The position numbers and the translations under genes were made by a program. Below are positions 8,324 to 14,722 of a stretch of DNA of 14,727 nucleotides, in pieces. The notes under the pieces are model-generated. The model saw nothing but the letters and a program-made list of their open reading frames with translations, was not told where the DNA came from and made no database searches. The stretch comes from Desulfobacterales bacterium (GTDB lineage Bacteria; Desulfobacterota; Desulfobacteria; Desulfobacterales; JAUCGF01): the NCBI GenBank assembly GCA_029940345.1, contig JAOZRC010000054.1, forward strand, positions 1-14,727. The letters are read 5' to 3'. Every line of letters starts with the position of its first letter. Positions within the stretch are counted from its first letter, which is position 1.

Positions 8324-9191
8324 TACACCTCCCCCAAAAAATAACCAGGATGCTTGCCTTTACGTTGTCGCAACGCCTATCGGCAACCTGGAGGACATCA
8401 CATTTCGAGCAATCAAAATATTAAAACAGGCAGACCTGATTGCAGCCGAAGACACCCGGCATACGGGAAAACTGCTTCGTTCTTATAATATTAAAACCCC
8501 GCTGATTTCTTACCACGAATACAATGAGGAGCGTCGCACGCCGGAGTTGATTGAAAAATTAAAAACCGGCGTGGCAATCGCTTTGGTTTCAGATGCCGGA
8601 ACGCCCACAGTGGCGGATCCAGGTTTTCGATTGATTAAGGCAGCAATCGCCAATACTGTCAAAGTTGTTCCGATACCGGGCGTATCGGCACCCATTACAG
8701 CGATTAGCGCCGCGGGTATGCCCACGGATATTTTTATTTTCATTGGTTTTCCTTCCCCTAAAAAAACAAAACGGCGTCTGCAATTGCACAACTTGGCTAC
8801 AGAAACAGCGACGATTGTATTTTATATATCGCCAAAGCGTCTTTTAACTTTTTTACAGGAATTGATTGATGTTTGGGGGGATCGATATGCCGTTTTAGGT
8901 CGAGAGATGACCAAGATTTATGAAGAGTTTCTTCGGGGACGTTTATCGGAAATAATGACGATTTTGCAACAACGTCCCGCCATTAAGGGAGAATGCACCC
9001 TTCTTGTTTCCGGGTTTAAACAAGACAAAGCCGCAATGTCTAAAATAGTCCAGGCTGAGATTCAAAAAGAACTGACGTGTTCGGGTGCTAAAATTTCTGT
9101 AGTAACCAAAATGATTTCCAAAAAATATAGTGTCCCTCGTAATGAAGTCTATGCAGCGGCATTGAATTGGAAACGGAAAAAAGAAAAATAG
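8298..9191 (+). CDS. rsmI: 16S rRNA (cytidine1402-2'-O)-methyltransferase RsmI
   Basis: RsmI adds the 2'-O-methyl group at C1402 in the decoding centre. The 297-residue protein has the tetrapyrrole-methylase fold: YVVATPIGNLEDIT (22-35), EDTRHTGKLL (51-60), SDAGTP (98-103) and PIPGVSAPITA. A short C-terminal helical domain ends ISKKYSVPRNEVYAAAL. The ATG lies inside the yraN coding region (26-base overlap), so the pair is probably translationally coupled. About 20 N-terminal residues before YVVATP are longer than in many homologs, but no better internal start is seen. It is the last gene of the + strand cluster and converges on the next gene. Confidence 0.95.
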   Translation: MHLNSPIISTPPPKNNQDACLYVVATPIGNLEDITFRAIKILKQADLIAAEDTRHTGKLLRSYNIKTPLISYHEYNEERRTPELIEKLKTGVAIALVSDAGTPTVADPGFRLIKAAIANTVKVVPIPGVSAPITAISAAGMPTDIFIFIGFPSPKKTKRRLQLHNLATETATIVFYISPKRLLTFLQELIDVWGDRYAVLGREMTKIYEEFLRGRLSEIMTILQQRPAIKGECTLLVSGFKQDKAAMSKIVQAEIQKELTCSGAKISVVTKMISKKYSVPRNEVYAAALNWKRKKEK

Positions 9192-9203
9192 GTTGAAAAC
9201 GTC

Positions 9204-9343
9204 AGCATCCTTCATTCGTCGGTTTACACTTTGTCCCGTTAGGGACATCATATCTATAGAAAAAAGGCTTAACAGCACAACAAGTCCCGTAGGGACGAAA
9301 TAGAAACGGTGTAAACTACTTTCAAGCTATTTTGAAGGATGCC
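9204..9343. mobile_element. MITE-like shell element, copy 1, GTCCC hairpin core, 8-bp TSD
   Basis: Outer inverted repeats are GCATCCTTCA (9205-9214) and TGAAGGATGC (9333-9342). Inner ones are GTTTACAC (9222-9229) and GTGTAAAC (9309-9316). Between them lie two small inverted hairpins, GTCCCGTTAGGGAC (9233-9246) and GTCCCGTAGGGAC (9284-9296). The element is flanked by the direct repeat AAAACGTC (9196-9203 and 9344-9351), as expected for a target-site duplication. It encodes no protein and fills the convergent gap between rsmI and the minus-strand gene. It could also stop transcription from either side, but no T-run supports a classical terminator. Confidence 0.75.
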
Positions 9344-9366
9344 AAAACGTCCTTACGATCTTCGAT

Positions 9367-10221
9367 TTACAGTTCTAAACATTCAATCGTATAATCCGTC
9401 AGATCGACCAACATTAGTTTATTTCTTAAAAGGGAACCTGTTTGTAAAATTATTTTCATGACTTCGGTGCATTCCAAAGATGCAATCACCATCACCGCAT
9501 GGGCCAGACATCCTAAGATAGTTTCCGCGCCTTTGGGACGGATATTTTCCGAATTGCCGTAAATCTGTTTTAAACCGTCGTCTTGAGGGAAGATAGTTGT
9601 CACATGGCCGGTAATGCCTGCCACGGCCGCCGCAACAAGCGGAATATTCAATTGTTTAGCAGCCTTTTCAAGAATAAAGCGGGCGGGGATATTATCCAGA
9701 CAGTCTACAGCTACATCGCATGCTTTCATCAGCGCGTCGGCATTCGAATTGTCCAGATATTGATCATGGCAGTGAACAGTGACAGATGAATTAATGGCGT
9801 TTACTCTTAAACAGGCAATTTCGGCTTTTGAGACGCCAAGGGTTTCTTCTGTCGCAAGCAATTGGCGATTGAGATTATGGTCTTCAAATGTATCGCCGTC
9901 GATCAGTGTGAGCGTCCCAACACCCATGCGGGCTAATACTTCTACAACCGTTCCGCCCAGTCCGCCTAATCCGATAATACAGACATGGGCTTTCAGAAGC
10001 ATTTGTTGGTCAGTGGTTGATAACATTCGCATGTTGCGAACATAACGTTCCGGGATAATATTTTCAGCCAGTGCCGTAATTTCCAAATCGCGGATGCTGA
10101 CTTTCAAAGATAACGCTATCTGTTTGATCAATGGGGTGGACAAACAGGTGTAAACAACGCCATCAGGAAATTTTGCAGGGGTCGCCTTTTTTTTTAAAAT
10201 ATTTATAGTTTCAGTGTTCAT
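9367..10221 (-). CDS. HesA/MoeB/ThiF-family E1-like adenylyltransferase
   Basis: Enzymes of this family adenylate the C-terminal glycine of a ubiquitin-like sulfur carrier, a step in molybdopterin/tungstopterin, thiamine or similar sulfur-transfer pathways. The 284 residues have an N-terminal extension of about 65 residues ending IIPERYVRNMRML, a nucleotide-binding GLGGLGG (84-90), DGDTFEDHNLNRQ (108-120, Arg119), Lys132 and VDCLDN (172-177). The paired CxxC zinc motifs of classical MoeB are absent, so it is closer to the HesA-type branch. The adjacent MoaD-like gene is its obvious substrate. A pterin-cofactor role is inference because no other cofactor gene or target enzyme is in the window. 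A strong Shine-Dalgarno is formed by the end of the upstream gene. Confidence 0.88.
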   Translation of the reverse strand: MNTETINILKKKATPAKFPDGVVYTCLSTPLIKQIALSLKVSIRDLEITALAENIIPERYVRNMRMLSTTDQQMLLKAHVCIIGLGGLGGTVVEVLARMGVGTLTLIDGDTFEDHNLNRQLLATEETLGVSKAEIACLRVNAINSSVTVHCHDQYLDNSNADALMKACDVAVDCLDNIPARFILEKAAKQLNIPLVAAAVAGITGHVTTIFPQDDGLKQIYGNSENIRPKGAETILGCLAHAVMVIASLECTEVMKIILQTGSLLRNKLMLVDLTDYTIECLEL

Positions 10222-10225
10222 TTGA

Positions 10226-10459
10226 TCATCCTCCCCCTACCGGTGGAAAAATACCAACCCTATCTCCGCCGTTAAGCACCGAGGTCGAATCGCCTTTTTT
10301 ACCGTTAATAAAGATAAGTTTGGTCAGAGAGGCCGGAATTTGCAGTTCATTAAGTAGTTCGCCAACGGTTACGCCGGACTTAATGGGGTGATGTTCAGCC
10401 GATGCGGGTAAATATTTTTTCAGTGTTGCAAACAGTTTAATGGTAATGTATGTTTTCAT
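10226..10459 (-). CDS. MoaD/ThiS-family sulfur-carrier protein
   Basis: A 77-residue ubiquitin-like beta-grasp protein. It ends FPPVGGG, and the C-terminal glycine is the residue that is adenylated and converted to a thiocarboxylate in this family. The start MKTYITIKLFATLKKYLP and the middle VGELLNELQIP and LIFINGK are typical of MoaD. Its stop is four bases before the E1-like gene, forming a two-gene operon. The ribosome-binding site of this gene itself is weak. Whether it serves molybdopterin synthesis (MoaD proper), tungsten enzymes or another sulfur transfer cannot be decided without the missing pathway genes. Confidence 0.9.
   Translation of the reverse strand: MKTYITIKLFATLKKYLPASAEHHPIKSGVTVGELLNELQIPASLTKLIFINGKKGDSTSVLNGGDRVGIFPPVGGG
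10229..10237 (-). promoter_or_regulatory. ribosome-binding site made of the sulfur-carrier Gly-Gly-Gly codons
   Basis: On the minus strand the last three sense codons of the MoaD-like gene are GGG GGA GGA. These nine purines are also the Shine-Dalgarno of the E1-like gene, with the stop codon and seven bases of spacing before its ATG. This arrangement implies coupled translation of carrier and activating enzyme. Confidence 0.8.
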
Positions 10460-10502
10460 TTTTACTTGTTGGTGCCCTTCATTTATTTTTCAGTTAAATG
10501 TT

Positions 10503-10611
10503 GATGGTTTCGTAAAAAGTCAAAATTCTAAAAATCAGACTTGTAACCTATTGAAATCATTAGGTGCGAAATTAAGAAAATGACGAATTCCTGACTTTTT
10601 ACGAGACCATC
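10503..10611. mobile_element. 109-bp MITE-like element with 6-bp TSD
   Basis: Terminal inverted repeats of about 20 bases are GATGGTTTCGTAAAAAGTCA at the left (10503-10522) and the same on the other strand at the right (10592-10611) with one C/T difference. The direct repeat AATGTT flanks it (10497-10502 and 10612-10617), consistent with a target-site duplication. The interior is AT-rich and non-coding with a weak central palindrome. It lies about 40 bases upstream of the MoaD-like start codon, so it displaced or now supplies the promoter of that operon. No transposase is in the window. Confidence 0.75.
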
Positions 10612-10614
10612 AAT

Positions 10615-10774
10615 GTTGGGCATCTTCATTCGTCAGTTTACACTTTCTTGCGGAGTGCCAAACTTACAGTTTGGCGGTTGATACGGTTGATAAACGGCTG
10701 TACTTGAAACTGCCAAACTGTAAGTTTGGCACTCCATCTTAAAAGTGTAAACAGCTCAATGAAGGATGCTCAAC
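10615..10774. mobile_element. MITE-like shell element, copy 2, with GCCAAAC hairpin core
   Basis: The left arm GCATCTTCATTCGTC then AGTTTACACTTT (10620-10646) matches the left arm of the element at 9204 except for one missing base and one substitution. The right end has GTGTAAAC (10745-10752) and TGAAGGATGC (10760-10769). The inverted repeat extends outward to GTTGGGCATC (10615-10624) against GATGCTCAAC (10765-10774). The core differs completely from copy 1: a perfect 24-bp inverted pair at 10652-10675 and 10712-10735, each itself a hairpin with arms GCCAAAC and GTTTGGC. No target-site duplication is clear; the left edge overlaps the duplication of the preceding MITE. Confidence 0.75.
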
Positions 10775-10860: not shown

Positions 10861-11042
10861 AGGAACGGGGACAAAATAATTTCCCCAATTATGCATCACA
10901 GCTTCGGGCCACCTTTACCCGATCTCTGATCACAAAAGTATCAAAATAGCCTGCTATTCCTTCAACTTTTGTGATCAGAGATCGGGCAAATCTGACCCAA
11001 ATCTGCGCGCCTACTTGAGGAAATTATTTCGTCCCCATTCCT
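10861..11042. mobile_element. nested palindromic element, 24-bp outer and 22-bp inner inverted repeats
   Basis: The outer arms (10861-10884 and 11019-11042) begin AGGAACGGGGAC and AGGAATGGGGAC when each is read inward and match at 22 of 24 positions. A perfect 22-bp inner inverted repeat (10918-10939 and 10965-10986) starts CCCGATCTCTGATCAC. Its centre is another hairpin, AATAGC-CT-GCTATT (10945-10958). The whole can form a very long stem. It ends just before the ribosome-binding site of the epimerase gene, so if transcribed it would fold in the leader. The ends resemble palindromes mobilised by REP-associated transposases, which is inference. Confidence 0.72.
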
Positions 11043-11065: not shown

Positions 11066-12019
11066 ATGAAGTTAAACTTTAAAAGTGCGCTTGTCACCGG
11101 CGGCGCGGGCTTTATCGGCTCCCATATTGTCGATGAATTATTAGCCCAGGGAGTTAAAGTCGCCGTTATTGATAACCTGTCAACGGGCAACCGGAAAAAT
11201 TTAGCGCATGTTTGGGAGCGAATCTCTTTTTTCCAAGGCGATATACGTGATCAGAATATCTTAAACAAGGCCGTTCAAGGTATTGAGGTGATATTTCATC
11301 TGGCTGCGGTTGTCTCTGTCACCCAAACAGTGGAGCAACCCATTGATTCAGCGATGGTTAATGATTTTGGGACGCTTTCAATTCTTGAGGTTGCGCGCCA
11401 GTTCGATGTAAAAAAAGTGGTAATCTCCAGCTCTTGCGCAGTTTACGGAGATTCCCCCCAATTGCCCAAAGTTGAAACAATGATGCCGTTGCCATTAAGC
11501 CCTTATGCGGTGCAAAAATTGACCGGAGAGTTAAATGCGAAAGTTTACAATGATTTATATGGGGTGAAAACGGCGTGCTTACGGTATTTTAACGTTTACG
11601 GTCCGCGTCAGGACCCATCATCTCCATATTCCGGTGTAATATCGATTTTTATGTCCAAAGCGGCATCACAGGCTAAACCGTTAATATACGGTGATGGAAA
11701 TCAATACCGCGATTTTATTTTTGTCAAAGACGTTGTTCGTGTGAACTTATTAGCAGCCTACGATGACGATGCTTGCGGAAAAGTGTTTAACATTGGGTCT
11801 GCGAAACAAACGACAATTAACCAACTCTGGGAAATGATATGCGCGATGACGGCATTGAAAATCAAACCGGAATATCAGCCGGCCCGATCCGGAGATATTC
11901 GCGAATCACTTGCTGACATTGAGTGCGTCAGATCAACATTGGGCTTTTCGCCTGAATATTCGTTTGAACAGGGGCTTGAAATCACTTTACAGGCTACCAA
12001 CCATAAGCCGGGACACTAA
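11066..12019 (+). CDS. NAD-dependent sugar-nucleotide 4-epimerase (UDP-GlcNAc/UDP-Glc type)
   Basis: An extended short-chain dehydrogenase/reductase of 317 residues. The NAD site is VTGGAGFIGSH (10-20) with D36 in IDNLSTG. The catalytic set is SSS at 121-123 and Tyr147/Lys151 in YAVQK. RYFNVYGPRQDP, followed by SGVISIF, resembles UDP-N-acetylglucosamine 4-epimerases of the WbpP/Gne type more than dehydratases, but substrate cannot be fixed from motifs. Such enzymes act in the cytoplasm and supply galactose- or GalNAc-type residues for surface polysaccharide. AGGAAGGA precedes the ATG by nine bases. The second epimerase follows after 162 bases. No glycosyltransferase is in the window. Confidence 0.9.
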   Translation: MKLNFKSALVTGGAGFIGSHIVDELLAQGVKVAVIDNLSTGNRKNLAHVWERISFFQGDIRDQNILNKAVQGIEVIFHLAAVVSVTQTVEQPIDSAMVNDFGTLSILEVARQFDVKKVVISSSCAVYGDSPQLPKVETMMPLPLSPYAVQKLTGELNAKVYNDLYGVKTACLRYFNVYGPRQDPSSPYSGVISIFMSKAASQAKPLIYGDGNQYRDFIFVKDVVRVNLLAAYDDDACGKVFNIGSAKQTTINQLWEMICAMTALKIKPEYQPARSGDIRESLADIECVRSTLGFSPEYSFEQGLEITLQATNHKPGH

Positions 12020-12025
12020 TGTAAC

Positions 12026-12092
12026 GCGGAAAGCTGTTCCGCGTCGTTCATAGCCGCATCAAGGTCGAAGAAGCGGAACGGCTTTCCGCTTC
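12026..12092. repeat. REP-like inverted hairpin pair, possible terminator
   Basis: GCGGAAAGCTGTTCCGC (12026-12042) and GCGGAACGGCTTTCCGC (12073-12089) are inverted copies matching at 16 of 17 positions. Each is itself a six-base-stem hairpin. The right one can extend to a nine-base stem (12070-12078 with 12084-12092) followed by ATTTTATC, so it may also act as a weak terminator of the upstream epimerase. It lies in the gap between the two epimerase genes. Confidence 0.7.
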
Positions 12093-12181
12093 ATTTTATC
12101 CCGCCTTGTGCTGGTAGCCACTTTACAATATGCTACTGTTAAATCCTGTAAAAATAGTTAAAAAAGGAGACTTGGGGGAAA

Positions 12182-14673: not shown

Positions 14674-14722
14674 CTTAGAGCCTGTTTGGAAAGTCGTGAT
14701 CGAAGCGAAAAAGTGTGAGAGC
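14674..14722 (-). repeat. 49-bp repeat, right copy, inverted match to 1-49
   Basis: An exact reverse complement of the first 49 bases of the window, located 33 bases after the stop codon of the TPR-like gene. The arm has inner hairpin potential only of a few bases, so it is not a typical terminator. Five further bases follow to the window end. Confidence 0.9.

Follow-up and report, generated by a model that had tools for sequence, protein, structure and literature searches.

The window analysed here, a stretch of 14,727 nucleotides of a Desulfobacterales genome, contains two short elements with the same outer module around unrelated interiors, and raises the question of how one pair of ends has come to enclose different DNA. 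The first-pass annotation had suggested either a non-autonomous element with an exchangeable core or a platform into which REP-like pairs insert at one fixed place. We consider, with a probability of roughly 0.8, that the shell formed by the common ends is a type II MITE moved in trans, that its free middle has been refilled by independent palindromes, and that loaded shells have been amplified.

Two shell elements in the window

The features of the window that bear on this question are listed below.

9196..9203, no strand: left copy of the 8-bp target duplication AAAACGTC of element 1, exactly repeating 9344-9351
9204..9343, plus strand: element 1, a shell MITE with core type A (140 bp)
9204..9232, plus strand: left arm of element 1, TIR plus inner GTTTACACTTT, conserved up to here across the representatives of 33 core clusters
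9233..9302, plus strand: core A, a REP pair with hairpins at 9233-9246 and 9284-9296, with matches in its own genome and in the unit 5' of a Y1 gene at L121
9309..9343, plus strand: right arm of element 1, GTGTAAACTACTTT...GAAGGATGCC (35 nt)
9344..9351, no strand: right copy of the target duplication AAAACGTC, exactly repeating 9196-9203
10619..about 10769, plus strand: element 2, a shell copy with core type C, atypical in having left-type ends on both sides (flanks compared by eye)
10619..10646, plus strand: left arm of element 2, TIR minus one C, 96% identical to element 1 over 23 nt
10652..10735, plus strand: core C, a REP pair GGAGTGCCAAAC...GTTTGGCACTCC with inverted arms at 10652-10679 and 10708-10735
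10745..10769, plus strand: right end of element 2, a reversed left-type arm (GTGTAAACAGCTCAATGAAGGATGC) by sequence comparison; similar arms follow core C elsewhere
10862..11041, no strand: 180-bp palindrome standing on its own, related to the insert in the shell core of L211 (84% identity over 180/180 nt)

The common outer module of the two elements is borne out, since, with up to 3 mismatches allowed, the 20-base arm CTTCATTCGTCRGTTTACAC was found twice in the window, compared with no match in 200 shuffles. Element 1 has the standard asymmetry of the family, with a short left arm, where nt 26 is the last of GTTTACAC, and a right arm of 35 nt that is present in 29 of the 33 cluster representatives and resembles the arm terminating an insertion sequence of Desulfonema magnum. 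The right arm of element 2 reads inward as AGCATCCTTCATTGAGCTGTTTACACTTTT and is therefore of the left type, and arms like it (C..CAATG.AGGATGCC) come after core C in L360, L362, L363 and L364. The mirroring described by the first-pass annotation is thus limited to the 12-bp tip and the inner GTTTACAC and does not extend to the whole module, because element 2 has two left-type arms. No target duplication was seen when the flanks of element 2 were compared by eye. The cores are unrelated, as had been proposed, with a GTCCCGTTAGGGAC / GTCCCGTAGGGAC hairpin pair in element 1 versus a GCCAAAC...GTTTGGC pair in element 2; the inverted arms of the latter, originally given as 24 bp, measure 28 nt at 96%.

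Element 1 occupies the whole space between convergent tetrapyrrole methylase and ThiF family genes, from one stop codon to the other (window 9191-9367), where its hairpins could act as a terminator between the two genes. Several other repeats were found in the window. An inverted repeat TTGATGGTTTCGTAAAAAGTCA/TGACTTTTTACGAGACCATCAA at 10501-10613, near the left end of element 2, is a further repeat unit, and two adjacent hairpin-like inverted repeats (GGAAAGC...GCTTTCC) are located at 12017-12098, downstream of an epimerase gene. Positions 1-49 and 14674-14722 are perfectly complementary 49-base copies of one sequence at the contig ends, which suggests an assembly break at another multicopy repeat. 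A search of the window against Rfam gave no matches.

A mobile family with 8-bp target duplications

The arm is not restricted to these two elements. We found it at 167 places in the genome from which the window comes (84 on the forward and 83 on the reverse strand; 6.05 Mb in 1,024 contigs), where the reversed control gave no matches. A 25-base version of the arm was found at 194 places in this genome and, across the order, in 16 of 96 genomes including this one. Among the matches listed, the named genomes with the arm are Desulfobacter latus, Desulfamplus magnetovallimortis and Desulfonema magnum, and the others include several uncultured Desulfobacterales and Deltaproteobacteria, Methylococcales MAGs and one Nitrosomonas MAG. 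The Methylococcales and Nitrosomonas copies that were inspected show the left end alone. No match to the 140-bp element was found in plasmid or phage records at the sensitivity used.

From loci L001-L339 we compiled a catalogue of 179 non-redundant elements of up to 450 bp, comprising 172 with a left and a right end (hereafter standard), five left-left and two right-right. These elements are 72-390 bp long (median 139 bp), have the TIR GGCATCCTTCAT and, judged by their size and repeat content, are without coding capacity. The shortest, L080 (72 bp), is almost without a core. The pattern used to recognise tips in the catalogue allowed substitutions only, and element 2, whose left tip is one base short, is for this reason missing from the listed core-C cluster. 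The lengths of the 172 standard elements hint at a period near 10.75 bp (null fractions 0.0225 and 0.0105); this period was picked after the lengths had been viewed and the clusters are non-independent, so helical phasing between the ends is not claimed.

An exact 8-bp target duplication was observed directly around 118 of the 178 elements with both flanks, and around 142 of the 178 when one mismatch was allowed. Exact duplications of other lengths were found in 2/178 (7 bp) and 0/178 (9 bp), and random flank pairings gave an exact 8-bp duplication in 0.09% of cases. The exact duplications are 78% AT. Since 24 of the 33 core clusters include at least one element with an exact duplication, loaded shells move as units, after loading. 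The mobility seen here is therefore that of the whole shell.

The parent insertion sequence and its transposase

The first-pass annotation had suggested looking for a transposase whose flanks carry the same arms, and such a transposase exists. Arm copies in Methylococcales run into an open reading frame at contig ends, and 46 residues of this frame gave matches in eight of 311 genomes of that order. At one of these, L305, a 535-residue frame has the shell left end upstream, with the right end lying off the contig. The L305 protein matched 15 of 25 genomes at E <= 1e-3, the weakest at 27-28% identity. The window's own genome, which was among the 25, has two decayed transposase places. The complete insertion sequence identified is the following.

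L297 944-2866, minus strand: complete insertion sequence of Desulfonema magnum NZ_CP061800, 1,923 bp (local tblastn)

It has GCTCGGAG on both sides, a left end GGCATCCTTCATTTATCAGTTTACACTTT and a right end AAAAAGTGTCAACTACTTTTATATTAATATGAAGGATGCC, and these ends are directly observed to be the shell arms. Over 510 residues, its transposase and that of L305 are 49.6% identical. A second complete but divergent copy, L334, has TAAAAATA on both sides, the same left/right asymmetry and one stop in the frame, and L313 has both ends and lacks the duplication. The shell is a type II MITE with the ends of a full insertion sequence. The search with the L305 protein revealed no intact copy of the transposase in the own genome, which counts against this reading, and mobilisation in trans is an inference.

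The transposase is probably DDE-like, to judge from weak family matches and from conserved acidic residues identified by eye. It scored 19 bits against PF00872 (Transposase_mut; best 19.3, cut-off 21) and 16.6 against NCBIfam IS256 (cut-off 150; best member E = 1.3e-5), and assignment to the IS256/Mutator family was rejected because both scores are below the cut-offs. Against PF01610 (DDE_Tnp_ISL3), one of eight members (L326) was above the cut-off, at 27.5 vs 23 bits, and NCBIfam ISL3 gave E = 0.034, again in one of the eight. With Transposase_mut below its cut-off and ISL3 above in a single member, we call the protein DDE-like and file it under no family. The ISL3 family is characterised by an 8-bp AT-rich duplication and ends beginning GG; the shell has both traits, which are common to other families too.

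Candidate parents were also sought through their flanking ends. Sampled ISL3 copies did not have the shell ends as terminal pairs, and a weak ISL3 match in HSG8 (L160) turned out to be the shell-end transposase itself. DDE_Tnp_IS1595 was absent from the own genome (0/1) and present in one of 12 relatives, whose sampled copy had no terminal pair of shell ends; by eye, this IS1595 locus (L132) showed no shell end with a subterminal arm. IS1595 was not retained as the parent, and neither were the sampled ISL3 copies. Sequence and profile searches of solved structures gave no matches, an AlphaFold prediction made without an alignment (pLDDT 37.5) was set aside, and scans of viral contigs with the transposase found no relatives.

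One may ask whether the shell is itself a REP or BIME mobilised by a Y1 (RAYT) transposase. The own genome has 11 Y1_Tnp matches, and at one of these, L131, about 40 nt separate a Y1 fragment from a decayed right-type shell end that points away from the fragment. However, elements moved by RAYTs end in REP hairpins and are not known to make a duplication, whereas the shell has 8-bp target duplications and its ends belong to a different, DDE-like insertion sequence. In addition, a search for the 12-bp TIR (up to 2 mismatches) at the other 10 Y1 loci gave two hits, neither of which had a subterminal arm by eye. The duplications and the parent element effectively refute a Y1 origin of the shell. 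At L131 (1644-1829), the Y1 fragment is followed about 40 nt on by the decayed shell end and by another dispersed repeat that continues to the contig end.

Diversity and boundaries of the cores

Single-linkage clustering of the 172 standard elements by core gave 33 clusters, and the 53 standard elements of the own genome fall into nine. Many core families are thus observed directly, and the shell is not tied to a single core. Five clusters of about 106 bp (C4, C9, C19, C24 and C26) resemble one diverged family by eye, so the figure of 33 overstates the number of independent acquisitions.

We aligned one representative per cluster. On the left, the outer 12 bases have a high information content, as does a second stretch that runs to the third T after GTTTACAC; beyond this T, the content drops close to zero. 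On the right, the increase comes about 4 bases before GTGTAAAC. The cores lie between the inner repeats GTTTACACTTT/AAAAGTGTAAAC. The conservation drop at GTTTACACTTT / AAAAGTGTAAAC coincides with the extent of the arms that are also present in the full insertion sequence.

This boundary bears on the idea of a landing platform, according to which the hairpin tip formed by the inner repeat GTTTACACTTT/AAAAGTGTAAAC would be a preferred single-strand target for Y1/REP elements, all arriving at one place. The position of the cores fits such a platform, as does the match of core A to a Y1-associated REP pair. When the 33 core representatives were folded against shuffles, 19 had z below -2, which likewise speaks for a platform, and 14 did not. 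But the linkers between arm and hairpin were seen by eye to vary with core type, and constraint on the arms alone predicts the same boundary. Insertion of REP pairs at one fixed place, as first proposed, is therefore unsupported, and we regard the platform as unlikely.

The arms were found to co-vary with the cores. In the own genome, left arms scored 0.834 within core types vs 0.690 between them, and right arms 0.733 vs 0.587; in 1000 permutations of the labels, neither observed difference was reached. This co-variation indicates that cores are not freely shuffled and that refilling is rare relative to amplification. The exchangeable core of the first-pass annotation stands to the extent that the elements are non-autonomous and mobile with different cores per shell, but free exchange among shells does not.

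Relatives of the cores outside shells

Could the cores instead be fast-evolving descendants of one ancestral interior, unrelated in appearance only? Such divergence in place would suit the co-variation of arms and cores and, by eye, the five 106-bp clusters. Relatives outside shells speak against it. For 13 of the 33 clusters we observed a relative whose surroundings are free of arms and TIRs for 70 nt; the similarity extends over 50 nt or more in eight of these clusters and over 27-41 nt only in the other five. For the remaining 20 clusters, no clean free-standing relative was found in the 1.27 Mb of unmasked sequence searched. Divergence in place is contradicted for core A, core C and the L211 insert and is left for clusters without outside relatives; as a general account we find it very unlikely.

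The most informative relative is that of core A. In the own genome, a unit at L121 1408-1484, directly 5' of a Y1 gene, is 88% identical to core A over 77 nt, and has no TIR within 70 nt and arm-like strings at 3 mismatches only. It is the one place among the 11 Y1_Tnp matches at which core A adjoins the Y1 match, and this proximity also argues against divergence in place. The Y1 gene with its core-A REP pair spans L121 1408-1880, and the frame continues into what we take, by our own reading, to be a phage tape-measure-like protein, as if the unit were inserted therein.

Eighteen plasmid records contain proteins related to the core-A Y1 protein, and two were inspected. Upstream of a tnpA on a Bernardetia plasmid (49% identical), the layout hairpin-(A)AATATxTxTAGAA-spacer-hairpin is by eye that of core A; the stems differ from those of core A and the spacing motif is the same. 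The relative on a Persicobacter plasmid (L381; 37% identical) has other hairpins, and the core-A layout was not seen there. Scans of viral contigs with the Y1 protein found no relatives.

A query with core A gave at least 40 matches in the own genome (40 of 82 candidates scored). Arm-like sequence borders the match on either side in 37 of the 39 scored contexts examined; the remaining two are L121, without a TIR, and one at a contig edge without an adjacent arm. Core A is therefore almost confined to shells. The direction from REP gene to shell draws on few cases, given one of 11 Y1 loci, one of two plasmid relatives and a core A that is mostly in shells. The core-C query (40 of 80 candidates scored) gave at least 87 match rows in the own genome, many of which come from both strands of a single palindrome; at 20 of the 23 places inspected, a TIR lies within about 80 nt of the core on one side or both, and the other three (L370, L378 and L379) have none.

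Filled and unfilled copies

A filled and an unfilled version of one element were observed directly in one Desulfobacteraceae MAG. The unfilled version is represented by L236 and L282, both 214 bp long, and the filled one by L211, which is 390 bp long and whose extra DNA is a 180-bp palindrome lying between TAA repeats far inside the core. Around the whole of L211 there is an 8-bp repeat whose copies differ at one position. The palindrome is also free-standing elsewhere in the same MAG, and its relative in the window (10862-11041) has TTA on both sides where L211 has TAA. This one sharply defined insertion is a further argument against a landing platform, as it lies deep in the core, and insertion between TAA repeats is unlike Y1 transposition as it is known.

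A size series in HSG9 (L190, L168 and L174; 87, 112 and 164 bp) has common ends with none, part or all of a palindromic core, although size order gives no direction of change. In L064 (1970-2349) and L076 (164-540), core A itself contains another repeat, which has ends of its own (CATRCGCGTCAAGCTAAG), lies at the same hairpin in both and is bordered by CCGTAGGG-type repeats. Its two copies differ in interior, and refilled shells may thus extend beyond one family.

Refilling could also proceed by aborted gap repair or template switching, in which another locus is copied between the ends after excision, a route of capture that has been proposed for plant Pack-MULEs. The many unrelated cores, some of them non-palindromic, the irregular linkers and the nearly coreless 72-bp shell L080 would all be accommodated. 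Many cores are repeats, however, rather than single-copy genomic DNA, and L211 gained a whole palindrome that also exists free-standing in the same MAG. We see capture by gap repair as possible, if somewhat doubtful.

Proposed explanation

We therefore return to the type II MITE with a refilled middle. The shell would correspond to the two ends of an insertion sequence of about 1.7-1.9 kb minus the transposase gene, and would be mobilised in trans by the transposase of this parent, duplicating 8 bp of AT-rich target. If the transposase requires the arms alone (about 29 nt on the left and 40 nt on the right), the middle would be free to change. Independent palindromic repeats, including the REP pair of a resident IS200/RAYT-type element, may have entered it on separate occasions, probably by insertion of mobile palindromes as the usual route. 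Each loaded shell would then have been amplified as a unit, giving one lineage per cargo.

In a bolder version, which we consider quite unlikely, the inner palindrome of the shell is a docking site for single-strand HUH/Y1 insertion of REPs, so that Y1 enzymes load the hairpins and the DDE transposase copies the shells across phyla. If this were true, two unrelated transposition chemistries (Y1 and DDE) would work in relay across genomes and phyla.

The ends of one transposon carry the DNA of other elements around bacterial genomes. One explanation for the mosaic of palindromic repeats in sulfate reducers is thus that many REP-like sequences ride on the ends of a single transposon. The elements also form a natural series with near-identical ends and interchangeable middles, through which the end requirements of the transposase may be separated from effects of the interior, and the shell ends point to a poorly classified transposase family.

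Comparison with known systems

Plant Pack-MULEs are non-autonomous, keep constant ends around captured interiors that vary, and make duplications of 8-9 bp; BOX elements are modular (boxA/B/C) and vary in the number of one module. The shell resembles Pack-MULEs in its constant ends and varied interiors, and its transposase has a weak Mutator match, below the cut-off; a Mutator-like element is the subject of PMC5225508. Unlike Pack-MULEs, the shell is bacterial and its cargo consists of repeats rather than gene fragments, as far as seen. Pneumococcal BOX elements likewise have constant ends and a variable middle module, but the middles of the shell are unrelated to one another instead of varying in module number; BOX elements are the subject of PMC3049150. 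MITEAba12, a MITE of 113 bp, has conserved TIRs around a central region that varies, and for it the authors infer, in the section cited, a single event and near-constant length (PMC6382973); shells, in contrast, range from 72 to 390 bp and have unrelated cores. Among the matches listed from the openly licensed literature, the text available described neither these ends nor the refilling of a bacterial MITE with REP pairs.

Cores A and C are REP pairs, and core A adjoins a Y1 gene in one place, which relates the shell to the REP/BIME/REPIN systems with RAYTs as portrayed in the cited portions of PMC3116915, PMC2817692 and PMC3733652. The difference is that the REP pair is here the cargo of an element with other ends that duplicates 8 bp. 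The closest class is that of type II MITEs, which, according to the cited part of a review (PMC10969869), are alike only at their TIRs. Like these, shells are short, have TIRs and target duplications, and resemble their parent at the ends alone. The variation within MITE families set out in that part of the review consists of size and decay, and does not include refilling. What distinguishes the shell from type II MITEs is that one set of arms encloses many unrelated cores across genera, some of which are recognisable palindromic repeats.
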